From the IMG/VR virus record IMGVR_UViG_3300048928_000145, positions 1-48,683 of that record: a stretch of 48,683 nt of DNA. One strand, written 5' to 3'. This stretch comes from a virus. Shown piece after piece: positions 23,717-45,620 of this stretch (positions are counted from its first letter, which is position 1; every line of letters starts with the position of its first letter). A program made the translations under genes and the position numbers. The notes beneath the pieces are model-generated. The model made no database searches. It was not told the origin of the DNA and saw nothing but the letters and a program-made list of their open reading frames with translations.

Positions 23717-24763
23717 TTACAGCAAATACCCGTGTTCGCGCAGCGTGGCATCGGTCCAGTTGTTCGCGATCATCTGCGCGTACGTCACGCCGTTGGCCTT
23801 GGCAGTCAGTTGCGGGCCGTCAGAAGGGGACGTCGGCGCAATCGGCGCACTCGGGGCGGCCGGCGCCGGGACCGGTACCGGTGCGGAAGGCGGCGGCACC
23901 GCAGCACCAGCAGGGGCCAAAGGGGCGGACACCGCCGTCATGGCCGGGTTGGGTGCGACGGCCACGGGTGCAGGCGGCGGGGCGTACGCTGCTTGAGCCG
24001 GTGCGGGTGCCGCGGGCGGCGGGGCGACGGCGGCCGGAGGCGCAACAGCAGCCGGCGGTGCCGGGGGCGGCGGGGTAATGCTCGAAGCGCCCAAACCGGC
24101 GGCCTCGGCAGGCGTGGCGGGAACGGCCAGCATGCCGGCCGGAGCGGCCGACGCCGGCGTATCAGCCAGGCCGGTGCTGGCAATATCCGGGCCGAAGGTG
24201 ATGATATCTTCGGGTCGGCAAATGCCCTTGAACGAAACGAAGTCGTGACCGATGTACAGGCCCGGGTTTGCGTCCTGACCATTGGGCATCGCGTTGCCGG
24301 CGACCTGAATGTAATAGCCGCCCTTGATCAGATCCTTTTCGGTAAGTTGAACCTTGCACGCCGCGTCCCAGATGTTCGGCTCGATGCCGGCGTTGTTGAA
24401 GAAAACAACCCAATGACCGGCCCAGCCCGGGCGGTCGCAGTTGCGCTTGTTTTTCTTGTTGATCGTGACGTCATCACCGTCCTCAACTTTCCACGAGAAG
24501 TCCGGGCGTTGGCCGGCGGTTTTCAGAAACGCATGGCCGATTTCCCAAAGGACTTTGCCCCACGGCTCGTTAGCCCAGTGGCCCGCGGCGGACTTGGCGA
24601 AAGCGACACCAAAGGACCAATCTTCGCGCGGCTGGCCGGCATTAGCGCCGGATTTGAACACTTTCACGTTTCCGTTCTGGTCCAACGTGGACGGGCGGTA
24701 CAGGGAACCGGAAACCAAACGGCCGATCGGGAAAGTGATGTTGGTGCGTTGTGCGGTTGCCAT
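23717..24763 (-). CDS. Single-strand DNA-binding protein, DUF2815-like, with Pro/Ala linker
   Basis: The product is 348 residues. Residues 1-195 are an OB-like beta domain of the DUF2815 type (ITFPIGRLVSGSLYRPSTLD; WGKVLWEIGHAFLKTAG; GGYYIQVAGNAMPNGQDANP; GLYIGHDFVSFKGICRPEDI). Residues about 205-315 are a low-complexity Pro/Ala linker. The last 25 residues (YAQMIANNWTDATLREHGYL) form a small helical tip of a kind I know from other phage proteins of this group, perhaps a partner-binding tail as in other single-strand DNA-binding proteins. It lies between a nuclease and the polymerase. Function rests on family and context. Confidence 0.78.
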   Translation of the reverse strand: MATAQRTNITFPIGRLVSGSLYRPSTLDQNGNVKVFKSGANAGQPREDWSFGVAFAKSAAGHWANEPWGKVLWEIGHAFLKTAGQRPDFSWKVEDGDDVTINKKNKRNCDRPGWAGHWVVFFNNAGIEPNIWDAACKVQLTEKDLIKGGYYIQVAGNAMPNGQDANPGLYIGHDFVSFKGICRPEDIITFGPDIASTGLADTPASAAPAGMLAVPATPAEAAGLGASSITPPPPAPPAAVAPPAAVAPPPAAPAPAQAAYAPPPAPVAVAPNPAMTAVSAPLAPAGAAVPPPSAPVPVPAPAAPSAPIAPTSPSDGPQLTAKANGVTYAQMIANNWTDATLREHGYLL

Positions 24764-24768
24764 TCTGG

Positions 24769-25896
24769 CTACTCCTTGGTTATGCCGAAAGCTTTTCGGA
24801 CTTGAGAATTTTCAATTCGGATCAACTTCGCTTCGGACCTGAAACGATCCGAATACTGATTGACTACATCAGCCGGTACGCCCGCGTCGATCGCTTGTTT
24901 GGGCGTCACCGGTTTACTACGGGTCAACTCGGTGCCGAACATCTGGCCCAGCATTGCGACCTGATCATCGGGCACCGACCACACTTGTCGGCCACTGCTG
25001 CGCTCGGTCGTGAAACCGCGCACCTCGTGTCCGCGTTGAATCATGGCCCGCGCTTCTACTTCCAGTCCCGTGATGCGGGCTTCAAGTATGTCGCGGGCGT
25101 CTTGCAACGTGCGTAGTTCCAAGCCAAGCGCCGGGCCGTCCATCGCGAACGGCGCACCGTCACCAGCAAGCGACGCATCCATGTACGCATGCCGCTGGAA
25201 CGTCGAACACTTGCCGCGGCCGGGACATTTGCGGCACTGAGAAATCCCGGTGCGCGCCGTTGCGTTCGGCCCCATCGCTTCTTCTGCGGCATTACCGAGA
25301 ATGTTAAACAACGGGCGCAATTCTGCCGCCGTGATCGTCCATTCCCGACAATGCCCCTCGCGATCAAAATTTCGCGGCTGGATAACGCGAATCTTGACCG
25401 TAATTTGCTGGTCACGCAGGCCGCTGACTTTCCATTGGTCCAGGATCGTACTGATGTACACGAGCATTTGCCAGTTGGAGAAGGCCGAGATAAACCGGCG
25501 TCCCGTTTTCAACTCCCAAAGCACGAGCGTGTTCGAATCGACCCAACAAAACGTATCGGGCTTGACGATGCCGACCGGCGCTAACCGTCCCTGCGCTTGC
25601 AAAACCTGTTCCACGTAAATCGGCTGGCCCTTGGAATGCTCTTGCACGTCGCGCAGGTACATCAACGCGCAGTCGAGCATTTCATCGGTCACGAATTGGC
25701 CGGGAAATCCCGCGACCGGTTCGCCAGCGTGGACGGCAACCCCGCGTTGGAGATTGGCCGCGACCACGTGGGCGCACTTGCCGAAAACGCGGTCAGGCGT
25801 TTCCTCTTCGGGATTGTCGCGGAGAGCTTGGGGCCAGTAGGTACAATTTACCCATGACCCCGCGCCCCACGCCGGCAAAGGAAGCGGCGCGGTCAT
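24769..25896 (-). CDS. Cas4/AddB-like PD-(D/E)XK nuclease with iron-sulfur cysteines (DUF2800-like)
   Basis: The product is 375 residues. ATG 25896 (MTAPLPLPAWGAGS) is chosen over one 14 codons earlier because it just follows the stop of the gene before it. His43 in FGKCAHVVAANL, Asp114 in GIVKPDTF and E128-x-K130 in LVLWELKTGR fit the RecB-type nuclease core; a Gln in NWQMLVY follows as in that clan. Cys18, then C221-x2-C224-x5-C230, gives the four-cysteine arrangement of the iron-sulfur cluster in Cas4 and AddB. The C-terminal 130 residues are helical. Likely an exonuclease for recombination or DNA processing, used with the binding protein next to it. Confidence 0.78.
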   Translation of the reverse strand: MTAPLPLPAWGAGSWVNCTYWPQALRDNPEEETPDRVFGKCAHVVAANLQRGVAVHAGEPVAGFPGQFVTDEMLDCALMYLRDVQEHSKGQPIYVEQVLQAQGRLAPVGIVKPDTFCWVDSNTLVLWELKTGRRFISAFSNWQMLVYISTILDQWKVSGLRDQQITVKIRVIQPRNFDREGHCREWTITAAELRPLFNILGNAAEEAMGPNATARTGISQCRKCPGRGKCSTFQRHAYMDASLAGDGAPFAMDGPALGLELRTLQDARDILEARITGLEVEARAMIQRGHEVRGFTTERSSGRQVWSVPDDQVAMLGQMFGTELTRSKPVTPKQAIDAGVPADVVNQYSDRFRSEAKLIRIENSQVRKAFGITKE

Positions 25897-25900
25897 GGTG

Positions 25901-26680
25901 TTAGCCCAGACGGTCAGCGAACGCGGCGTACACGTCACCGATCACGCCTTTCTTGAACGCCTCGCCCAGATTGCCGGCGTTCCATGCAAGGCACTCGTTT
26001 TCGAGTTCCGCCATGGTCACGGTGCCGACGCGTACAGCTTGGACGAGCGCATCACGCTTGGCTTTGTCGTCAGTGCCGGCCGGTGCGGGCGGCGGTGCGA
26101 CGGGGGCTGCGGGCACGGCCGGGGCGGCAGGCGGTGCGGGGGGTGCCGGAGGTGCGGGCGGCGCGATGGGAGCAACAGGTGCGCCCGGCGCCGGCGGCGC
26201 GGACGGAACAGCGGGCGACGACGGGGGAGCGGGAATCGATGCGGCACCGCCGCGAAGCTCGGCGGTCACGGTGGCGACGGTCTCATCGCTCACGCCGCGC
26301 AGCTTTTTCCATTCGCCAACGGCGGTTTTGGTCTTGGTCGATGCGTGGATCCGGGCGTCCCACGGCAGGCCGTTTTTGTCCAGATCCGCGCCAGCGGCGG
26401 AGGCCGGACGCAGCAGATCGGTGGCCGAGCCATCACCGTGATTGGTGGGAGCGGGCGGGGCCGGAGGCGTGGCGACGGGGGCCGCGGGTACGGACGGAAC
26501 GGGCAGCATTTCAGCAGGTGCGGCGGCTTCGGTCTTGCCGAAGATGGACGCGGCGTTGCCGGGGGCCATGGCGAAGAAATCACCATGATTGTCGGCGATG
26601 TGCGTCAGATAGTCGGCATTGGCGCGCAACTGGTGTTCGGTCGGCGGGTTGAAGGTGTCAATCTCAATCACGATTTTCAT
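25901..26680 (-). CDS. Early protein with Pro/Ala linkers and a GLPWDxRIH domain
   Basis: The product is 259 residues. It starts after a long low-complexity-free N-terminus (VIEIDTFNPPTEHQLRANAD). The centre holds DKNGLPWDARIHASTKTKTA followed by WKKLRGVSDETVATVTAELR, a small domain I know from phage proteins near recombination genes, function unsettled. Two Pro/Ala-rich stretches (residues about 55-85 and 150-205) flank it. The C-terminus is helical. First gene of the leftward operon, facing the divergent promoter pair. The nuclease gene starts just past its stop. Confidence 0.62.
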   Translation of the reverse strand: MKIVIEIDTFNPPTEHQLRANADYLTHIADNHGDFFAMAPGNAASIFGKTEAAAPAEMLPVPSVPAAPVATPPAPPAPTNHGDGSATDLLRPASAAGADLDKNGLPWDARIHASTKTKTAVGEWKKLRGVSDETVATVTAELRGGAASIPAPPSSPAVPSAPPAPGAPVAPIAPPAPPAPPAPPAAPAVPAAPVAPPPAPAGTDDKAKRDALVQAVRVGTVTMAELENECLAWNAGNLGEAFKKGVIGDVYAAFADRLG

Positions 26681-33023: not shown

Positions 33024-33768
33024 GTATCCCTCTTTCCCCGAATCGGTAGCTGGCTCGGGGCTTTTCACGGGTGCAAATCTCACTGAATACGCCCGCCAGT
33101 TCCACGAAGCGAACACCGTGACTGAGCATGTCGTCATCGGCCTGGAATGCTTGAACGTCATCATCGAGCGAAAAGGAGCGGACCCGGTACCAATGACCCG
33201 GGCAGAGCTTTTTGAGGCGATTGAAGCCTATGAGCGCCCTGCACCGCCGCCTGATAAGCATGTCGTCATCGAACCGGAATGCGAGCAGGTAACGCTGCTT
33301 CGTAAAGAGGGTCCAGCCGTACAGATTTCCAGAAGAGAGATTTTTGTGGCGATTGAAGCCTATTGGCGCCCGGCCGCGCCCGCTGCCGTAGCGGGTCACA
33401 TCCCGTTCGACCTGGACCGTGCCAAGGCTGGTGATGCGTTGGTCACGCGAGACGGGCGAGTCGCGTACTTCATCGGGTACGACGAGACGGCACCGACTCA
33501 TAGTCGGTTGACGGCATACGTCAAGGGTCAGAGTGACGTTCGTCTTTTTTACGCTGATGGCCGGTATGCTTCGGACGACACCGATATTGACCTATTCATG
33601 GCTGAACCCGTCAAAAAGCCGTCCGTCTGGGTCAACTACTACGCGCCCGGTCACTCGTTGGGGGTGTTGGAGGTTCGGTACAAGTCCCACGCCTGCGCCA
33701 CTTACGCTGCCGCTACTGCTGCCCCCGGAACGATCTGGCCTTTCGCCGTCGAGGTGCCGCAATGCTGA
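33010..33768 (+). CDS. Accessory protein with an internal tandem duplication
   Basis: The product is 252 residues. AAGGAG stands seven bases before ATG 33010. Residues about 39-80 and 81-121 are two copies of one unit, HVVI-x-ECxxVxxxRKxG...ExFxAIEAYxRP, still similar at DNA level. The C-terminal part (PFDLDRAKAGDALVTRDGRV, then an aromatic strand region ending DIDLFMAEP) is a small domain I know from many phage and prophage hypothetical proteins, function unknown. The last 40 residues are an extra strand-helix segment. Confidence 0.66.
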   Translation: MSSLEYPSFPESVAGSGLFTGANLTEYARQFHEANTVTEHVVIGLECLNVIIERKGADPVPMTRAELFEAIEAYERPAPPPDKHVVIEPECEQVTLLRKEGPAVQISRREIFVAIEAYWRPAAPAAVAGHIPFDLDRAKAGDALVTRDGRVAYFIGYDETAPTHSRLTAYVKGQSDVRLFYADGRYASDDTDIDLFMAEPVKKPSVWVNYYAPGHSLGVLEVRYKSHACATYAAATAAPGTIWPFAVEVPQC

Positions 33769-33923
33769 CCCTCGAAGAACGCGGGCAACGCCTGATTGCC
33801 GAAGCGCGTCGCAAGGCGCAGGAAATGGGCGCGCGGTACCTGTGCCATCCGGCCAATCGCGTGCAACGCCTCAAGCAACCTTTTACCCGTGGAGAACCGA
33901 AATGTCTTGGCTTTGGAAAGTAG
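33762..33923 (+). CDS. Small basic helical protein
   Basis: The product is 53 residues. GAGGT stands six bases before the ATG, which lies inside the end of the previous gene. The first 25 residues are an amphipathic Arg-rich helix (LEERGQRLIAEARRKAQEMG). It overlaps the next gene by 22 bases. No family recognised. Confidence 0.55.
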   Translation: MLTLEERGQRLIAEARRKAQEMGARYLCHPANRVQRLKQPFTRGEPKCLGFGK

Positions 33924-34423
33924 TCGCCTCCGTTGTGTCGCGGCCGGCGGTGTTCAATTGGTTGCGCCGTCGCGCCATGCGCACACCGTACACGCACATC
34001 GCTTCCCGTGATGGCACGCAAGACTACATGCGCCGTTTCTGGCTGTTCAACCCGTATGGCAATACGCCCGAGGGTAAGACAGCGCCGGCGCGTTGGTCAT
34101 GGTTGCCGTCGATCCGGTTGCACCACATCATGTTGCCCGATGACGACCCGCACCTGCATGACCACCCGTGGGACGCGCGTACGATCATTCTGGACGGCTG
34201 GTATATCGAAGAGTTGCCGGGCGGCCCACTGAGGATGCGTGACGCCGGCCACACGGCGGCGCTACTGTTCGGCCAGTACCATCGGATCGAAGCGGTATCC
34301 CCTGGCGGCGTGTGGACGTTATTTTTCACCTGGAAGTACCGGGGCACGTGGGGCTTTGATGTTGATGGCGTGAAAGTCCCCTACTACGACTATTTGAAGG
34401 AGCGCAACAATGCAATGGAATGA
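33902..34423 (+). CDS. Cupin-like metalloprotein
   Basis: The product is 173 residues, starting at ATG 33902. The centre reads DDDPHLHDHPWDARTIILDG, with the H-x-H-x-H-P pattern of a cupin metal site, and the fold closes with HRIEAVSPGGVWTLFFTWK. An N-terminal Trp/Arg-rich stretch (SWLWKVVASVVSRPAVFNWL) might touch a membrane. Phages often carry such cupin proteins; their substrate is not known to me. It overlaps the next gene by 14 bases. Confidence 0.7.
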   Translation: MSWLWKVVASVVSRPAVFNWLRRRAMRTPYTHIASRDGTQDYMRRFWLFNPYGNTPEGKTAPARWSWLPSIRLHHIMLPDDDPHLHDHPWDARTIILDGWYIEELPGGPLRMRDAGHTAALLFGQYHRIEAVSPGGVWTLFFTWKYRGTWGFDVDGVKVPYYDYLKERNNAME

Positions 34424-36118: not shown

Positions 36119-36628
36119 ATGTCTCTCGGACTTACCGCAATGAATTTCGCGCGCCTGGCGCACGCTGACCAGCGCCGCAAATACACCAATGCGCCTTACA
36201 CCGACCATCTGGCCGAGGTGGCGGGCATCGTAGCCACGCTGCCGCGGGTCTACTACCATCCGCAGGCCATGCAGGATGAAATGGTTGCCGCGGCGTGGTT
36301 GCATGACGTGATCGAAGATCAAGGCGTCACGGCCGAAGAGTTGTCCCATACATTCGGCCCCATCGTGGCCGGCGGCGTGCTGCTCTTGTCCGACCTGGAA
36401 ACCGAAGGCAACCGCGCCACGCGCAAAGCCGCGGCACGTGACCGGCTGGCCGAGGCGCCATCCTGGATCCAATCGATCAAGGTTGCCGACATGATCAGCA
36501 ACACGGCCAGTATCGTTCAGCATGACCCGGGCTTTGCCCGGGTTTACCTGGAAGAGAAACGCTTGCTGCTGGACGTCCTGACGGGCGCGCATCCGGCACT
36601 ACTGGCGATCGCTCGGGAGCAACTGTGA
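36119..36628 (+). CDS. MESH1/SpoT-like HD-domain hydrolase
   Basis: The product is 169 residues. AAGGAG precedes the start. HADQRRKYTNAPYTDHLAEV (residues 15-34), AAWLHDVIED (58-67; H62 and D63 are the HD pair) and SIKVADMISNTAS (119-131; D124) match the SpoT/MESH1 hydrolase domain with its metal ligands intact. It stands alone with no synthetase domain, so removal of (p)ppGpp or of another nucleotide tag is the likely activity. In a phage this could end starvation signalling or counter a nucleotide-based defence. It ends at a TGATG overlap with the next gene. Confidence 0.82.
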   Translation: MSLGLTAMNFARLAHADQRRKYTNAPYTDHLAEVAGIVATLPRVYYHPQAMQDEMVAAAWLHDVIEDQGVTAEELSHTFGPIVAGGVLLLSDLETEGNRATRKAAARDRLAEAPSWIQSIKVADMISNTASIVQHDPGFARVYLEEKRLLLDVLTGAHPALLAIAREQL

Positions 36629-38302: not shown

Positions 38303-38503
38303 ATGAGCAAAATTCTCTCTTCTTATCAGGCCTGCGCCGTGCATGCGGCCATTGAGTCGGGCGCTGACTTTTTCGGGCTTCGCTGGAAATTTGGAGTGTC
38401 GGTCACGTCTGAGGCGGGATGCATCTGCGTCGTGTCCCGTGACGGGCGCGAACTTTATTATTCCGCCGAAGAATTCTCTAACGCCTACACATTCATGCTA
38501 TGA
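38303..38503 (+). CDS. Small protein of unknown function
   Basis: The product is 66 residues. AAGGA lies eight bases before ATG 38303; the ATG two codons earlier is too close to it. The C-terminal half is beta-rich (FGVSVTSEAGCICVVSRDGR, ELYYSAEEFSNA). It overlaps the next gene by four bases. No family recognised. Confidence 0.58.
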   Translation: MSKILSSYQACAVHAAIESGADFFGLRWKFGVSVTSEAGCICVVSRDGRELYYSAEEFSNAYTFML

Positions 38504-39081
38504 AAATACCTACCAAAATGCTTGCCGCCGTTGCGCTTGCTTCGGCCAAAAAGGACATTCGCGAGTACCTACGCGGTGTCTGCGTGGATGGCCCGAACCT
38601 GATCGCGACGGACGGGCACCGAATACACGTCGGCCACATTGGCGGCGATTTCACGGGTCACGTGGTCATCCCGATTGACGTGGTGAAAGACGCGCTTACG
38701 ATCAGCAAGGGCGAGTTTGTCGAACTGGAACAACTCGGCGAGGGGTGGACAATTGCGGGCGGGATCCCGTTTGAACCCGTGGCCGGCAAGTACCCCGAAT
38801 GGCGGCGCGTGGTGCTGGGAGTACAAAAACCGGGATCCGTGCCACCGATGAATGGGTTCTACCTGCACGACGTGGCCCGGGCCGCTAAACTGCTGGGCGA
38901 CAAGCGCGGCGGGTTTGCTATGCACTGCGAGGCTGGCGCGTCGTCGGTACTCTGCAAACTGACCGCGCGTGATGACTTTGTTGCTTTGCTGATGGGGCAA
39001 AGTATGACCGATGCGATCCGCAAAGATCCTTCTAACCCGTGGCATTCCGCCATTCTCCCGGGCCGTCCGGCCTGGATCTAA
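38500..39081 (+). CDS. DNA sliding-clamp-like protein (DnaN domain fragment)
   Basis: The product is 193 residues. The string IREYLRGVCVDGPNLIATDGHRIHV, with ATDGHR, is the hallmark of one domain of bacterial beta clamps; HVVIPIDVVKDAL and EGWTIAGGIPFEP continue the clamp fold. It is about half the length of DnaN and would hold one to two of its three domains. Alone it could act as a trimeric-type clamp for the phage polymerase or interfere with host DnaN. Confidence 0.66.
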   Translation: MKIPTKMLAAVALASAKKDIREYLRGVCVDGPNLIATDGHRIHVGHIGGDFTGHVVIPIDVVKDALTISKGEFVELEQLGEGWTIAGGIPFEPVAGKYPEWRRVVLGVQKPGSVPPMNGFYLHDVARAAKLLGDKRGGFAMHCEAGASSVLCKLTARDDFVALLMGQSMTDAIRKDPSNPWHSAILPGRPAWI

Positions 39082-41007: not shown

Positions 41008-41009
41008 TC

Positions 41010-41333
41010 ATGGCTAACTTTGTCGCAGGTAAAGCGCTGTTGGTCATCCGCCGCGTGGCCGCTGATCATTTCTGGGTCGACTCTCACATCCAAAGCCTGA
41101 CCCATTCCAGCAATTGCCGCGATGCGGCCATGGACTGGGCGACCGAAGAACTGGGGTTGATGGAATGGCCTAGTCTGCGGCCGGCGCATAGTTGCACGCG
41201 TCGGATGGCGATCGGGGACACTATGCGCGTGGCCGTCACGTTTCGCGTCGAGGGCTGGACCAACGCGGACGGCGAGGGTGATTCGGAGTTGCACATTGAG
41301 AAGGCGCGATGCTTGCGGCACCAGCATGGATGA
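41010..41333 (+). CDS. Protein of unknown function
   Basis: The product is 107 residues. ATG 41010 is chosen because GGAG lies seven bases upstream; ATG 41004 sits almost on that site. Beta-rich (ALLVIRRVAADHFWVDSHIQ; DTMRVAVTFRVEGWTNADGE) with a Cys/His-containing C-terminus (RCLRHQHG). No family recognised. Confidence 0.58.
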   Translation: MANFVAGKALLVIRRVAADHFWVDSHIQSLTHSSNCRDAAMDWATEELGLMEWPSLRPAHSCTRRMAIGDTMRVAVTFRVEGWTNADGEGDSELHIEKARCLRHQHG

Positions 41334-41529
41334 GAAAGAGGTTTTTGAACTTGCCGATTTGATTCTCGGCGAGAAGTACAACCGGGCCAACGTCAAAACC
41401 CTGGCCGATGCAATCTTTGCCGCGGGGATCAAGCGTGGCGCCCAGATGATGCGCGCAGCTAACAACCGTTGCACGTGCGCTATCGGCCACATTCACGCGG
41501 AGGATTGCCCCGCGTATACGGAGGAATGA
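41326..41529 (+). CDS. Small protein with C-terminal Cys/His cluster
   Basis: The product is 67 residues from ATG 41326, overlapping the previous stop. A helical first half (DEKEVFELADLILGEKYNRA) is followed by NRCTCAIGHIHAEDCPAYTE, a CxC-x4-HxH-x3-C cluster that could bind zinc. Short proteins with this end are common in phage accessory regions. Confidence 0.6.
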   Translation: MDEKEVFELADLILGEKYNRANVKTLADAIFAAGIKRGAQMMRAANNRCTCAIGHIHAEDCPAYTEE

Positions 41530-41532
41530 ATC

Positions 41533-43749
41533 ATGACTGACCAGAACAACGCCGCCCAGGCGGAATTACGCGAAGCCCTGAACCTGTTGGCCGACCACGA
41601 AAAAGCACTCACCTATGTCAAGTCGAAAGGCCACGACACCGACAAAGCCGAACGTTGCGTGCAAGCCGCGCAGGAGCGTGTAGACGCCCTGCTGTCCAAG
41701 CTGCGCGCGGAGGGTGTGCAGGCGGACGATGAGCGGGCGGCGTTCGAGGCCTGGTTTACTGAGAAAGCTAAAACTCTCCCGCTCCTGAAAAACGAAAGCG
41801 TCTTTCGTTACGCCGGCGGCCAGTACGTCAGCGACTGGGCGTTATTTGGCTGGATGGTATGGGGTACCCGCGCCGCCCTGGCAAGCGCCCCTGTTCCGCC
41901 GGCCGAAGTCCTGGACGCGCTGAACTGGCTGGACGATTTCGTGGCGCGCTGCAATGGCGATGATCGCGGAGTGTGCGAGTCGGTCAACCTGCTGCGCCGG
42001 GCATTGGCAAGCGCCCCTGCGACCTGCGCCCATCAATTCCACTTCTTCGGCGAACAGAAAGAGCGCCGTTGCAATCGCTGCAACGCCCTGGATTCCAAGG
42101 CAAGCGCCCCTGTAGCTTGCAATTGCCCTGGGGGTAACAAGCCTGCGGACTTGCACGCACCGAATTGCCCTATCCGTGTAGCCAAGGCCTCATTGCTTGA
42201 TCCGTATGACGGAGGCACTTGGGTGGCAAGCGCCCCTGTAGCCGATGGCTGGCAACCGATCAAGACCGCGCCGCAAGGTGTGCGCGTGCTGTTTGGGCCG
42301 CGCCATGCTCCAGTAGTGGGCATCGTAAAGCACTACGAAGACGCGGATGGCGACGAGCCGGACATTGTCTGCAACGTGGTCCACTACAACGACACCGTCC
42401 TGGTTGCGGACTACCGCTGTTCGGAGTGGGCACCCCTGGCAAGCGCCCCTGTAGCCAATGCCCTGACCCAACAAGACGTTTTCGACCGCTTCCAGTTTCT
42501 GGAAGGTCTGGTGAACGCCAACACATACCGCAAAATTGCGGAAACAGCGCATGCCCTTTACGAATCCGGCGCGCCGTGGCCCAACATGGAGCAAACCATC
42601 CGCGACCTGCGCGCCGAGCTTGGCTATGTGAAGCAGTACGGGCCGCGCGTACTGCCTGACCTGTGCCCGCCTGCCACGTCACGCGACCGCTGGATGTATG
42701 AGCAAGGGCGATTGGCCGAGCGTGCAAGCGCCGCCGTGGACGCGGAAGCCGAAGACGGGGATTTCCTGGTCCGTCTGTTTGCGGAGCTGGACACCTGGCG
42801 CGCCGAAGACTGGAACGAGCTGATAGAACGCCGCCCTGCCATCCTCGCGCTGCTGCGGCCCCTGGTCCTGGCAAGCGCCCCTGTAGCCGATGAGCGGGCG
42901 GCGTTCGAGGTTGAGTACGCCAAAGAACTGTGCGCAAGAGGCACGCCGCCGACGTTCGCCGCATTCTTGAGGAACCCGGACGACTCCTACGCGCTACCTA
43001 TCGTTGAACGGGCCTGGGCCATGTGGCAAGCCCGCGCCGCCCTGGCAAGCGTCCCTGTAGCCGATACGCAATTGCCGGTGCGCTACTACAAAGACGGTGG
43101 CACCACTCACGCGGTTTACGGTAGTAGTTCGATTACCTACGTTGAGAAGCTACGCGCCGCCCTGGCAAGCGCCCCTGTAGCCGGGGAGCGATTCGAAAGG
43201 GAGGCGCTACGCCGAGACGAGCGGCTGCGCGAAGCCTCCTCTACCTTCCTGAATGCCTATCGCGCTCGCTATGGCGGGATCTATGGGCAGATCAAGAAGC
43301 ACGCGCCTCTGCAAGATCAGGTGTTGGCGCTAGTGTTCGCCTCGCGCGAAGCGCCGCCATCGGACGATGCCGCGCCCCAGGCCAGCGAGGCGCAAAAGCC
43401 TATCGGTTACGTGGCTGAATGGGGCGCGACCAGCAAGGTAGACGGGCATTTCCTCGTCGTCCATAGATCCCGAATCACAGATAAGCACCAAGCGGAAATA
43501 ACCGCTAAACAGTGGTCCGATAAATCCCCTGATTATGGGCCGATGAGGGCTACTGCTGTTTATGCCGCGCCCCAGGTCAGCGCCTCGCTGGAATTTGCGG
43601 CGAATGAATGCGAGAGGTGCGCCCAATCCATGGCCGGGTTGTTATCGTCCGAATTGATTCCGGCCGTGCGCGTCATGCTTTCTCAAGCCAAAAGGTTCCG
43701 CGCTATGAGCCAAGGGTTGCCGTGCCCCGAAGATGCGACATGGCGTTGA
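41533..43749 (+). CDS. Mosaic accessory protein of modules joined by ASAPVA linkers (Ea22-like content)
   Basis: This 738-residue protein is a chain of unlike modules separated by the linker LASAPVA (eight copies) and AAPQASEA (two copies). Recognisable pieces are an N-terminal coiled coil, ADDERAAFEAWFTEK...GWMVWGTRAAL (an Ea22-like unit, residues about 65-115), a Cys/His unit (CAHQFHFFGEQKERRCNRCN), GWQPIKTAPQGVRVLFGPRH (DUF551-like), a second ADERAAFE unit near 455, and a C-terminal AMSQGLPCPEDATW unit shared with the next-but-one gene. No catalytic motif. The linkers are almost identical at DNA level (separate entries). Likely an early accessory or anti-host protein that evolves by module exchange. 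Confidence 0.72.
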   Translation: MTDQNNAAQAELREALNLLADHEKALTYVKSKGHDTDKAERCVQAAQERVDALLSKLRAEGVQADDERAAFEAWFTEKAKTLPLLKNESVFRYAGGQYVSDWALFGWMVWGTRAALASAPVPPAEVLDALNWLDDFVARCNGDDRGVCESVNLLRRALASAPATCAHQFHFFGEQKERRCNRCNALDSKASAPVACNCPGGNKPADLHAPNCPIRVAKASLLDPYDGGTWVASAPVADGWQPIKTAPQGVRVLFGPRHAPVVGIVKHYEDADGDEPDIVCNVVHYNDTVLVADYRCSEWAPLASAPVANALTQQDVFDRFQFLEGLVNANTYRKIAETAHALYESGAPWPNMEQTIRDLRAELGYVKQYGPRVLPDLCPPATSRDRWMYEQGRLAERASAAVDAEAEDGDFLVRLFAELDTWRAEDWNELIERRPAILALLRPLVLASAPVADERAAFEVEYAKELCARGTPPTFAAFLRNPDDSYALPIVERAWAMWQARAALASVPVADTQLPVRYYKDGGTTHAVYGSSSITYVEKLRAALASAPVAGERFEREALRRDERLREASSTFLNAYRARYGGIYGQIKKHAPLQDQVLALVFASREAPPSDDAAPQASEAQKPIGYVAEWGATSKVDGHFLVVHRSRITDKHQAEITAKQWSDKSPDYGPMRATAVYAAPQVSASLEFAANECERCAQSMAGLLSSELIPAVRVMLSQAKRFRAMSQGLPCPEDATWR
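41878..43182 (+). repeat. Dispersed 19-bp linker repeat A, eight copies
   Basis: GGCAAGCGCCCCTGTAGCC or a near copy begins at about 41879, 42006, 42099, 42225, 42439, 42869, 43044 and 43164. All are in the same frame and encode ASAPVA or a close variant. Three copies share more sequence upstream (CGCGCCGCCCTGG). Spacing is irregular (about 90 to 430 bases), so this is not a satellite or CRISPR. Confidence 0.9.
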
Positions 43750-44790
43750 TTGCCATGTGCGCCGGCTGCTTCGTGTGGACGGCGCTATACCATCTATTAC
43801 CCGATAAAACCTACGCCAAGAATCGAAGAGTCTGGAGAACGATTTACAACGTAGGCTTTTACTCAATAGTCGCGGTGTCTGCCGCGGCGTTCTCAAAATG
43901 GTGAACACGATGCAAGAATCTTTTGATGGTGACCTGGACGCAGCACTTGGCGCCGCGCTATGCCGTGCGGAGACTGCTGAGCGCAAATGGCACGAGTACC
44001 GCGCCTGCGCTGAGCGCTATCTTTTCCTTCGCGATCACGCGGGGGCTGCTTGGGCCTCCTGGGTCGATACCTCAGACTCCGGTCCCGAGCATCGTAAGGA
44101 CTCGGAGATTGACGCGGCCATCCTGGAAATGCGTCGCAAGGGTACTTGGGGAACGTTGAAAGACTCGTCTGACGAAACCGTTGGCGCGCGCTTGGGCACC
44201 TTGCGCGAGGCGTCGGACCTGTGCGAAGCAAACGCCAAATTCCTCGAAGATATGCGCGCCCCGGATCTCGGCCACGTGATTCGAGCGCTACGCCAACAAG
44301 CCCGACGGTTTGAGGCAATGAGCCAAGAGCTTGCCCACCCTGCTTTCTATGACCCGAGGCAGGGTACCGGCGCACCCGTAGCCGGGGAGGCGCAAAGATC
44401 CGTCGCGTGGGAGAACTTCCCGGCCTATCTGATTGACCATTGCGAAGGCGACACAATCAGCGAGGAAGGGCTACAGCGCGCGCTGTCCCGGATGCTGGCT
44501 GATCCGAAGTATGCCGCGCCCCAGGCCAGCGAGGCGCAGCAGCCGGCGCTGGCCGTCTGGTACGGTTCTATGCCGGAGTCGAATGGTAAGAGCAACTGGA
44601 CCGCCATTCTGCACCGCAAGGGAGAAGGCCTGATGGACGGCCCTCACATCACTATCGACCGTTCCGAGTACCCGGACCGCGTGCGGTATGAAGCAGACCG
44701 TATGCGTTATCTGATCGGTGAAATAGCTGATGAACCGTGCATTCTGGACTACGACGCGGACAAGTGCGACGCCGCGCCCCAGGCCAATAC
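43369..44790 (+). repeat. Dispersed linker repeat B, four copies
   Basis: GCCGCGCCCCAGGCCAGC begins at 43369 and 44513 (both continue GAGGCGCA), with shorter copies at 43564 and 44771. It encodes AAPQAS(EA). Copies occur in two genes separated by an unrelated membrane-protein gene. Confidence 0.88.
43740..43904 (+). CDS. Small two-span membrane protein
   Basis: The product is 54 residues. ATG 43740 overlaps the previous gene by ten bases. Hydrophobic helices at residues 2-18 (ALIAMCAGCFVWTALYHLL) and 37-51 (VGFYSIVAVSAAAF), joined by a basic loop (DKTYAKNRRVWR). It separates the two mosaic genes. No family recognised. Confidence 0.6.
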   Translation: MALIAMCAGCFVWTALYHLLPDKTYAKNRRVWRTIYNVGFYSIVAVSAAAFSKW

Positions 44791-44827
44791 GCAGCCCATC
44801 GTGATCGATGAGCGTGGCGGCACGTAG
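43898..44827 (+). CDS. Second mosaic accessory protein with AAPQASEA linkers
   Basis: The product is 309 residues. ATG 43898 overlaps the previous stop; ATG 43910 is also possible, and no strong ribosome-binding site decides. Modules: helical N-terminus with a YLFLRDHAGAAWASWVDTSD unit and SEIDAAILEMRRKGTWG, then LCEANAKFLEDMRAP...RRFEAMSQELAHPAF, which is related to the C-terminus of the 738-residue mosaic protein. A variant linker GAPVAGEAQ follows, then AAPQASEAQQPALAVWYGSM, and a short end AAPQANTQPIVI. Unknown function; a paralogue by recombination of the large neighbour. Confidence 0.68.
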   Translation: MVNTMQESFDGDLDAALGAALCRAETAERKWHEYRACAERYLFLRDHAGAAWASWVDTSDSGPEHRKDSEIDAAILEMRRKGTWGTLKDSSDETVGARLGTLREASDLCEANAKFLEDMRAPDLGHVIRALRQQARRFEAMSQELAHPAFYDPRQGTGAPVAGEAQRSVAWENFPAYLIDHCEGDTISEEGLQRALSRMLADPKYAAPQASEAQQPALAVWYGSMPESNGKSNWTAILHRKGEGLMDGPHITIDRSEYPDRVRYEADRMRYLIGEIADEPCILDYDADKCDAAPQANTQPIVIDERGGT

Positions 44828-44845: not shown

Positions 44846-44870
44846 AAACCCGTCCATGTGGCGGGTTTTT
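44846..44870 (+). terminator. Rho-independent terminator after the mosaic genes
   Basis: AAACCCG (44846-44852) pairs with CGGGTTT (44862-44868), followed by TT. It separates the accessory block from the HTH regulators. Confidence 0.78.
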
Positions 44871-44881
44871 ATTTGCGCTAG

Positions 44882-44899
44882 ACTTACAACCATGTAAGT
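44882..44899. promoter_or_regulatory. Palindromic operator before the first HTH gene
   Basis: ACTTACA-ACCA-TGTAAGT is a perfect 7-bp inverted repeat. It overlaps a possible -10 box (TAGACT, 44879-44884) and lies 16 bases before the ATG at 44915, the right place for self-repression by the HTH proteins. A near copy is inside the second HTH gene. Confidence 0.66.
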
Positions 44900-44914: not shown

Positions 44915-45193
44915 ATGAACCGCAACGATATTTTGGAAGAGGCGGCGAGGGAACTGGAGGCGAACGGCTTGGCGTCGAGCGCGGCAATCGTGCGCGCCAT
45001 GCGGACTACGCCAAAGGCCGGAGCGAATCGTACGGACAGGCTACGGCGTCTGATGCGCTTGCACGGGCTGACCGCGGCGGATCTCGGCGTTATTCTGGCC
45101 AAGTCCCCGAACACTGTGGCCGCCTGGCGTGTGGGCAACCATTGCGCCATCCCCGCTTCAACATTGGAATTGCTGGAGAGTATGTATGCGTGA
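44915..45193 (+). CDS. HTH regulator, single domain
   Basis: The product is 92 residues. After a helical N-terminus (ILEEAARELEANGLASSAAI) comes an XRE-like unit, RLRRLMRLHGLTAADLGVIL then AKSPNTVAAWRVGNHCAIPASTLELLE. This unit recurs twice in the next gene with the shared core V-x2-W-R. It overlaps that gene by eight bases. It sits between the accessory genes and the late promoter region, so control of late genes is likely. Confidence 0.78.
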   Translation: MNRNDILEEAARELEANGLASSAAIVRAMRTTPKAGANRTDRLRRLMRLHGLTAADLGVILAKSPNTVAAWRVGNHCAIPASTLELLESMYA

Positions 45194-45620
45194 CGTTGGA
45201 AGCCCGAAACAAAGAACGGGAGCACTGCGAACCGCGATGGCGCGCTATGGGCTAAGCGCTGAAGATGTGGCAGGGCTGCTTGGGGTTTCGGCCCGTCAGG
45301 TGGGATCGTGGCGAGTCGGCCAAAAGAACGTCATCCCTGGTATCTGGCTCGGCATGCTGGAAGAAAAATTACGGGCTTACAAGGTTGTAAGTGCTACGCC
45401 GGCCCAAGATCGCCTAAGTAGACTACGTCGTGTGATGGAGGCTAAAGGATGGTCCTGTGAGGCCGTAGCGGCCACGCTGGGGCGCGAATCGGCCACGGTG
45501 AAGGGTTGGCTTAGGTCACCCCTTAAAACGATCACTGAGCGCGATCTACGCGTTCTAGAAGGCTTACCACGATTTGACAAAAATCTACGCGCGGAAGTTG
45601 GCGGCGAAAAACCGTTATAG
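45186..45620 (+). CDS. HTH regulator with two tandem domains
   Basis: The product is 144 residues, ATG 45186. Domain 1 (about 12-62) reads ALRTAMARYGLSAEDVAGLL then GVSARQVGSWRVGQKNVIPG; domain 2 (about 75-125) reads RLRRVMEAKGWSCEAVAATL then ATVKGWLRSPLKTITERDLR. Both are XRE-like and related to the domain of the gene before. Together the two genes give three copies of one DNA-binding unit, which suggests origin by duplication and binding to paired sites. The region encoding the linker contains a palindrome (45376-45391). Confidence 0.8.
   Translation: MRDVGSPKQRTGALRTAMARYGLSAEDVAGLLGVSARQVGSWRVGQKNVIPGIWLGMLEEKLRAYKVVSATPAQDRLSRLRRVMEAKGWSCEAVAATLGRESATVKGWLRSPLKTITERDLRVLEGLPRFDKNLRAEVGGEKPL
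45376..45391. promoter_or_regulatory. Palindrome CTTACAA-GG-TTGTAAG inside the second HTH gene
   Basis: A perfect 7-bp inverted repeat with two central bases, like the operator at 44882-44899 (shared arms CTTACA/TGTAAG). It could be a second binding site of the same regulators. Confidence 0.6.

Follow-up and report, generated by a model that had tools for sequence, protein, structure and literature searches.

Phage genes built from modules joined at shared in-frame DNA connectors, in phages mostly of Achromobacter and Bordetella

Introduction

What keeps short linkers nearly identical as DNA, and in frame, between protein modules that are unrelated to one another? The question is raised by two genes of a virus genome, the IMG/VR virus record IMGVR_UViG_3300048928_000145 (48,683 bases, analysed at full length and called the window here). 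A reading of the bare letters (the sequence-only reading) had noticed the linkers and proposed that short in-frame homologies let the phage gain, lose or swap modules. The genes are described here, with high confidence, as modular accessory genes whose modules are exchanged, gained and lost at shared DNA connectors that would act as homology patches. Exchange at the linkers is well supported. The linkers are more than that reading saw: within one host group they recur in many phages that are not otherwise related, and they form part of a set of about six connectors with a defined order.

The two genes and their linkers

Gene 1 (41533..43749, + strand) encodes a modular protein of 738 amino acids with a QNNAAQ head, eight copies of linker 1 and two of linker 2. 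A Shine-Dalgarno-like GGAGG lies directly upstream. The N-terminal part carries QNNAAQ and SKLRAEGVQADDERAAFE, both further conserved connectors. Gene 2 (43898..44827, + strand) encodes a modular protein of 309 amino acids with two copies of linker 2 and one diverged APVAGEAQ joint. A terminator-like hairpin (44846..44868, + strand) closes the two-gene block.

Linker 1 is GGCAAGCGCCCCTGTAGCC (ASAPVA). Eight copies are present when up to 3 mismatches are allowed, where shuffling of the window predicts 0.02; all lie on the + strand and within gene 1. Four are exact (copy 4, 42225..42243; copy 5, 42438..42456; copy 6, 42870..42888; copy 8, 43164..43182, followed by GE), two have 1 mismatch (copy 3, 42099..42117; copy 7, 43044..43062) and two have 3 (copy 1, 41880..41898; copy 2, 42006..42024). 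The peptide is ASAPVA in five copies, ASAPVP in copy 1, ASAPAT in copy 2 and ASVPVA in copy 7. A ninth, diverged joint of this kind (GAPVAGEAQ, 44367..44400, + strand, repeat family D2) opens a gene 2 module. Linker 2 is GCCGCGCCCCAGGCC (AAPQA). Its four copies, all on the + strand, lie at 43367..43392 (AAPQASEA), 43562..43587 (AAPQVSAS), 44511..44536 (AAPQASEA) and 44767..44786 (AAPQA, repeat family D3); three of the four match the 21-mer at up to 3 mismatches, with 0.02 expected by chance. All linker copies of the window are in frame. The eight and four repeats first noticed were thus recovered, as was an 'AMSQ' module common to both genes (identity at 17 of 48 residues, with E 4e-8 in a pairwise comparison).

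The modules between the linkers are unrelated, as the sequence-only reading held; its labels 'Ea22-like' and 'DUF551-like' found no support in profile searches. Pfam searches of both proteins, taken to an E-value of 1, gave no credible family. The only profile match is phrog_343 (unknown function, E 6.7e-4, residues 64-116). The match of lambda Ea22 to gene 1 is weak (pairwise E 0.005 over 84 amino acids).

Breakpoints between phages

Close relatives of the window phage were sought by three routes. The best TerL segment among the 80 IMG/VR loci listed has only 57% identity, a dUTPase search found none, and a search with the DGWQPI module of gene 1 returned a single contig that was already among the collected loci. 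No relative of the same lineage was found, and other phage pairs were therefore compared. The set comprised 171 linker genes, 154 after removal of near-duplicates.

Flanks of 45 nucleotides on each side of a linker were scored as agreeing at 75% or more. Among the 154 genes, where left flanks of linker 1 agree, the right flanks also agree in 7 of 132 cases; starting from the right side, the count is 7 of 120. For linker 2 the values are 6/65 from the left and 6/82 from the right. At control anchors, which are exact 18-mers inside modules and may favour well-conserved stretches, the other flank agrees in 54/59 and 54/62. The near-duplicate filter favours non-collinear pairs; for this reason the unfiltered count is given as well, and in all 171 genes both flanks of linker 1 agree in 31 of 177. 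Segments shared by two genes end on a linker core in at least one of them at 328 of 570 left ends and 343 of 608 right ends, and in both of them at 187 left and 258 right ends; such stretches make up 15% of positions.

Single exchanges are seen in closely related phages. In their first 40 kb, phages Axy12 and Axy24 align over 39,281 bases at 97.8% identity. Two of the five interruptions of this alignment fall in the 0.9-kb linker gene, where one module is replaced between LSKLRA and SAPVA and another between SAPVA and AAPQA. The gene reads alike outside these two modules, and the replaced modules have relatives in other phages. Loci L032 and L073 have 486 nucleotides at 99.2% and 151 nucleotides at 100% in common, with one unrelated module between. 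Module replacement is also found in L044 compared with L090 and with L165.

Gain or loss is seen as well. In six pairs a module is present in one gene and missing in the other, and the flanks overlap by 20-23 nucleotides; one connector copy is left, as recombination between direct repeats would leave it. These pairs share loci and amount to about three separate cases. The window and L042 differ by the gain or loss of modules CAHQFHFF and CNCPGG; the modules on either side, PPAEV and DGWQPI, have 83-85% protein identity. Among interrupted collinear pairs, both breaks lie at a connector in 13 of 24. A further apparent deletion, L072 against L157 (a Bordetella trematum record), was rejected as an assembly gap of L157, in which 10 N stand in place of about 270 nucleotides present in L072.

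Breakpoints had been predicted to lie in the linkers, and they do so in these replacements, gains and losses. From phage to phage, the identity of the modules switches at the connectors. The opposite pattern, collinear modules with linkers diverging at the same rate as the modules, was not seen: both flanks are rarely common, and the mean difference at third positions of the linker is 4.6% (94 copies), against a pooled pS of 0.28 between modules of the same family.

Conservation of the linkers as DNA

Codon use was taken from a degenerate IMG/VR search (any codons for ASAPVAGEA, Ser as AGY), because a collection made by exact matching biases codon counts. Of 96 matches, 75 are identical to GCAAGCGCCCCTGTAGCCGGGGAGGCG and 19 differ by 1-2 nucleotides, so that 94 are within 2 nucleotides of the 27-mer; the remaining two differ by 6 and 8 nucleotides and look unrelated. 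Valine is encoded by GTA in 90 of the 96, against 12.9% of Val codons. In the 94 copies, third-position diversity along ASAPVA is 0.12, 0.02, 0.06, 0, 0.08 and 0.04, against 0.68, 0.27, 0.68, 0.71, 0.71 and 0.68 expected from codon usage in long open reading frames (ORFs) of the same loci. Secondary structure was rejected as the cause: four linkers folded with RNA parameters give ordinary z-scores (-0.8 to +0.6), with no excess over shuffles.

These codons bear on an improbable and disfavoured alternative, in which modules are shuffled by non-homologous events, survivors are those joined at a favourable hinge peptide, and the DNA is irrelevant. The Ala/Pro-rich peptides are hinge-like. Of 191 distinct contexts of the 15-nucleotide linker core, 187 are in open frames of at least 100 codons, 2 in frames of 60-99 and 1 at a contig edge, the single exception being a Hymenobacter match. 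Module length is a multiple of three in 432 of 436 (median about 48 codons). All of this would be expected of a hinge. Peptide constraint would, however, leave synonymous positions free, and they are almost invariant, including GTA and CCT, which are uncommon in these genomes.

Order of connectors and pool of modules

Further connectors were found by de novo counting of 12-mers, and each has a typical position along the gene. Their order is start, LSKLRA, SAPVA, AAPQA, QADKDGG, end. Adjacent connectors are out of order in 8 of 636 cases, against a mean of 261 in label shuffles (lowest of 200, 244). Gene 1 of the window fits this order, with QNNAAQ, LSKLRA, the linker-1 copies and then the two linker-2 copies. 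What follows SAPVA depends on its ending: SAPVA with GE is followed by AAPQA in 123 of 136, and SAPVA with DE by another SAPVA in 94 of 96.

The 554 modules form 318 families, 206 of them singletons. For the 49 families present in at least three genes, 199 of 222 copies occupy the slot usual for the family, and the neighbours of a family mostly vary; homologous modules at about 90% identity adjoin unrelated ones. The connector and slot counts suggest typed exchange, in which a module would fit a slot via its matching ends. Over 156 same-family module pairs, the pooled ratio of nonsynonymous to synonymous differences (pN/pS) is 0.22, which indicates purifying selection; this value covers modules of equal length, in pairs with 70% to 98.5% identity. 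By this ratio and the open frames, the linker proteins are kept in working order.

Modules of the window and their relatives

Of 16 window segments searched in the collected loci, 8 have relatives, including gene 1 modules 2-5 and gene 2 module 1; the other 8 have none there. Module PPAEVLDALN (41899..42005, + strand) has relatives in L042, L081, L164, L266 and L106 (71-91% amino acid identity). The Cys/His module CAHQFHFF (42025..42098, + strand) is related to L066 and L142 (69%), and the Cys-rich module CNCPGG (42118..42224, + strand) to L028 and L133 (83%); the L028 linker gene matches a gene of Achromobacter phage Mano. Module DGWQPI (42244..42437, + strand) has a relative in L042 (85%), which there directly follows the PPAEV module. 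In gene 2, module AWENFPAY (44401..44512, + strand) has relatives in L054 (93%), L013 and L152. Module QQPALAVWYGSMPESNG (44535..44768, + strand) has a relative in Pseudomonas phage Cygsa01, where these linkers are absent. This segment (QQPALAVW) is 70% identical to its relative at L296:1151-2041, which belongs to a 166-kb Pseudomonas phage and lies in a different protein that lacks the linkers; the similarity begins and ends near the linkers of the window.

Distribution in phages and hosts

The exact 19-mer of linker 1 occurs in at least 119 stretches of IMG/VR. Among 84,980 species genomes, 24 stretches contain it: 16 from Achromobacter, 5 from Bordetella and 3 single matches in unrelated organisms, which are taken for chance. 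Linker queries against 50,697 named phage records match 25, namely 12 Achromobacter, 11 Bordetella and 2 Pseudomonas phages. No plasmid match to the 45-nucleotide linker consensus was found. By genome titles and named phages, linker DNA is confined almost only to Achromobacter and Bordetella, and on this spread the window phage most likely infects this host group. The carriers include temperate phages of B. avium, N4-like Schitoviridae, phage Mano and phages of 94-95 kb. They are otherwise little related: the 116 loci that have 4 kb or more of flanking DNA form 6,670 pairs, and in 5,726 of these nothing beyond the gene is alike at 80% identity. The DESPMAKMADALREK module pair occurs with an STPVA linker in Pseudomonas phages TC6 and FBPa8 and with SAPVA in Achromobacter phage ART (L310, L311, L313). 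Transfer of this pair across host genera is possible.

Conservation at the DNA level could also mark some other functional DNA site, such as a Chi-like hotspot, a protein-binding site or a regulatory element, that stands between modules by chance. This is very unlikely. Nearly every one of the 191 distinct contexts in the collected loci has the core in the frame that codes for ASAPVA, and the two promoter-like matches of the region lie off the linkers. In the family of one Achromobacter genome the 18-mer is present in 31 of 268 genomes, and a genome of the family holds 0 to 5 exact copies, unlike a genome-wide hotspot; a reversed control pattern had no match in the 268 genomes.

Recombination genes and proposed mechanism

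The window encodes a Gp2.5-like single-stranded DNA binding and annealing protein as candidate recombinase (23717..24763, - strand, phrog_7011, E 1.1e-48), an exonuclease as its candidate partner (24769..25938, - strand, phrog_69, E 1.2e-34) and a RusA-like Holliday junction resolvase (38500..39081, + strand, phrog_3007, E 6.5e-23). Its linker genes have a dUTPase gene on one side and repressor-like/TerS genes on the other. In 146 loci of relatives, within 7 kb, an exonuclease is found upstream in 27, a single-stranded DNA-binding protein in 17, Erf in 15 and RecT in 7; an integrase family is found downstream in 50, and two more gene families (15 and 7 loci) are integrase-like by eye. B. avium phages IFTN1-6 and 9 have the order exonuclease VIII, RecT, linker gene, with an integrase further downstream in IFTN2, 5 and 9. 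The order in lambda is exo-ea22-xis-int, and the linker gene of these three phages takes the place of ea22. This position between exo/bet and xis/int is common in relatives and is not that of the window.

The connectors would serve as homology patches of 15-45 nucleotides for exchange or deletion. An incoming module with the right connectors would join in frame. The engine is most likely a phage exonuclease with a single-stranded DNA-annealing protein (the exonuclease and Gp2.5-like protein in the window, RecT or Erf nearby in relatives); short-homology annealing near its own substrate would be the simplest one. Annealing recombinases may thus perform the exchange, and the modules may serve counter-defence. 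The connectors may be kept uniform because recombination spreads them and only modules carrying them enter. The Ala/Pro-rich linker peptide would also suit a flexible hinge.

A dedicated site-specific recombinase acting on the linker, as in shufflons or integron cassettes, is a little less likely again than a chance functional site. The 19-base repeats do lie between exchangeable coding segments, and an integrase family lies downstream in 50 of 146 loci, as given above. All eight window copies are in direct orientation, the fold of the linker RNA is ordinary, connector types of different sequence behave alike, and no integrase is named in the displayed features of the N4-like carriers Axy12, Axy24, JWAlpha and JWDelta. 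Vertical inheritance with fast-evolving modules and conserved linkers is scarcely credible: head and tail connectors and their order are conserved, but modules about 90% identical stand beside unrelated neighbours, the modules replaced in Axy12/Axy24 have relatives elsewhere, the modules are under purifying selection, and no intermediates between alternative modules of a slot were seen in aligned pairs.

Several points weigh against exchange at the connectors by annealing. Exchange is read from sequence comparison. Of the left ends of shared segments, 242 of 570 lie away from the two scored linker cores, as do 265 of 608 at the right, and 11 of 24 interrupted collinear pairs do not have both breaks at a recognised connector. 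The common left break of IFTN2/IFTN5 is at no defined connector, and the linker gene of JWAlpha/JWDelta differs nearly throughout. Six of the seven B. avium phages read (IFTN1, 3, 4, 5, 6, 9) have an identical gene; exchange is therefore not constant. Common patches are often of 15-31 nucleotides, which is short for RecA, and Gp2.5-like annealing on such patches is assumed. The exonuclease and annealing genes of the window are about 16 kb from the linker genes and do not adjoin them. Counter-defence rests on few domain matches, some of them weak.

Protein function

Domain scans covered 100 of the 154 linker genes. Thirteen Pfam families are listed, among them DUF3850 (4 genes), dATP/dGTP pyrophosphohydrolase (3) and ASCH (3), with DUF4406, the DnaJ zinc region, the Acb2/Tad1 hairpin and others in one gene each. 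PHROGs matches include RNA-binding protein (4), Mu Gam-like (3) and host nuclease inhibitor (3). The host nuclease inhibitor match of L097 was rejected as a functional module, as it covers the general head region. Names given by submitters to linker genes are hypothetical, 'transcriptional regulator' and 'Lar-like restriction alleviation'.

Acb2/Tad1 are anti-CBASS/anti-Thoeris proteins. The hairpin match lies at L001:2708-2809 (- strand; E 3.1e-8, 27.1 bits at a cut-off of 27), in an N-terminal module fused to an LSKLRA-like connector. At the cut-off it is only a lead. The linker proteins are probably accessory factors that act on the host or its defences, and this is the weakest step of the explanation. 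Counter-defence or host control as such is the leading guess for their role, with the doubts clearly heavier than the support.

A wider proposal is tentative, the doubts slightly outweighing the support. The connectors would be a standard, like a cloning kit: a small alphabet of DNA joints that keep the reading frame, have typed ends and follow a set order. Through it, carrier phages of one host group (from temperate prophages to N4-like and 94-95 kb phages) would draw on one pool of small domains for counter-defence or host control, several hundred in number. The standard would persist via that access, which would mean selection on evolvability.

Comparison with known systems

In the modular theory of lambdoid phages, short conserved boundary or linker sequences between exchangeable units lie between genes; the joints described here are in frame within one gene and several times repeated. 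In shufflons and integrons, short repeats delimit exchangeable coding segments. Unlike in a shufflon, there are no inverted linker copies in the window, and unlike in integron cassettes, the four folded linkers have no attC-like fold. No dedicated site-specific recombinase was found among the scanned window neighbours (ORFs at 41008-41530 lay outside the scan). No reverse transcriptase of a diversity-generating retroelement is named among 32 window proteins in general scans, which were not aimed at it.

The Ea22-type mosaic genes are nearest in position and logic. The available text on Ea22/EaD/EaA of lambdoid coliphages and Salmonella phages describes an accessory gene of the exo-xis region with a common N-terminal part and unrelated C-terminal domains, and calls it mosaic (PMC10834534). 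The linker genes have such a mosaic structure with unrelated domains too. Sequence kinship to Ea22 is not supported: the Pfam family is absent from the two window proteins (E up to 1) and from the 13 families of the 100 relatives. Ea22-type coliphage genes also share DNA-identical joints, in loci L316-L324 (lambda, HK140, HK106, HK633, HK620, ES18, JM3.2, ev017, HK022). A joint of 27-28 nucleotides at 100% codes for an AGIRIKGE C-terminus (lambda, HK022, HK620, JM3.2), and further shared stretches lie around KRIAELE, NSPVTPDGW and WMPLPEPP (26-34 nucleotides for the last). Standing between otherwise unrelated modules, they suggest that a different host group has connectors of its own. Of the 154 linker genes, 111 have an internal exact 14-mer repeat; of the 11 genes from coliphages and Salmonella phages, none has one, and the Ea22-type genes are therefore no tandem arrays of interchangeable modules. 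The linker genes differ in their repeated, typed connectors, which allow module arrays; this extends the known Ea22-type mosaicism.

In the text available, Smug et al. 2023 (PMC10684548) report that fragments recombine between phage proteins and are agnostic on the genetic process; the words linker and breakpoint do not occur in the main text. The joints here differ from what that text covers in being explicit DNA sequences, host-group-wide and ordered. De Paepe et al. 2014 (PMC3945230) describe, in the part available, relaxed homologous recombination by Rad52-like phage recombinases over homologous regions of at least 100 bp, and leave Gp2.5-like recombinases, the kind found in the window, for later work. 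The RecT and Erf genes near linker genes in relatives are candidate engines of the kind treated in that part. A literature search with little reach into subscription journals found no description of these linkers.

Phage mosaicism is usually seen after the fact, with the joint invisible. In the linker genes the joints can be read directly, recur and follow an order, and pairs of nearly identical phages with single-module replacements make exchange directly testable. The module pool is a list of small phage domains with function mostly unassigned, much of it findable by one 19-mer search; a few modules resemble nucleotide-pool, nuclease-inhibitor and anti-CBASS-type domains.

Other features of the window

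A small membrane-like reading frame (43740-43904) overlaps the gene 1 stop (ATGGCGTTGA) and may be translationally coupled between the modular genes. Two ACTTACAA-type elements (44882-44898 and 45376-45392) are in inverted arrangement and 94% complementary. They flank or sit within two repressor-like ORFs (44915-45193 and 45129-45620) and are possible operators. Cysteine dioxygenase-like and metal-dependent phosphohydrolase genes are present at 33533-34423 and 36119-36628.

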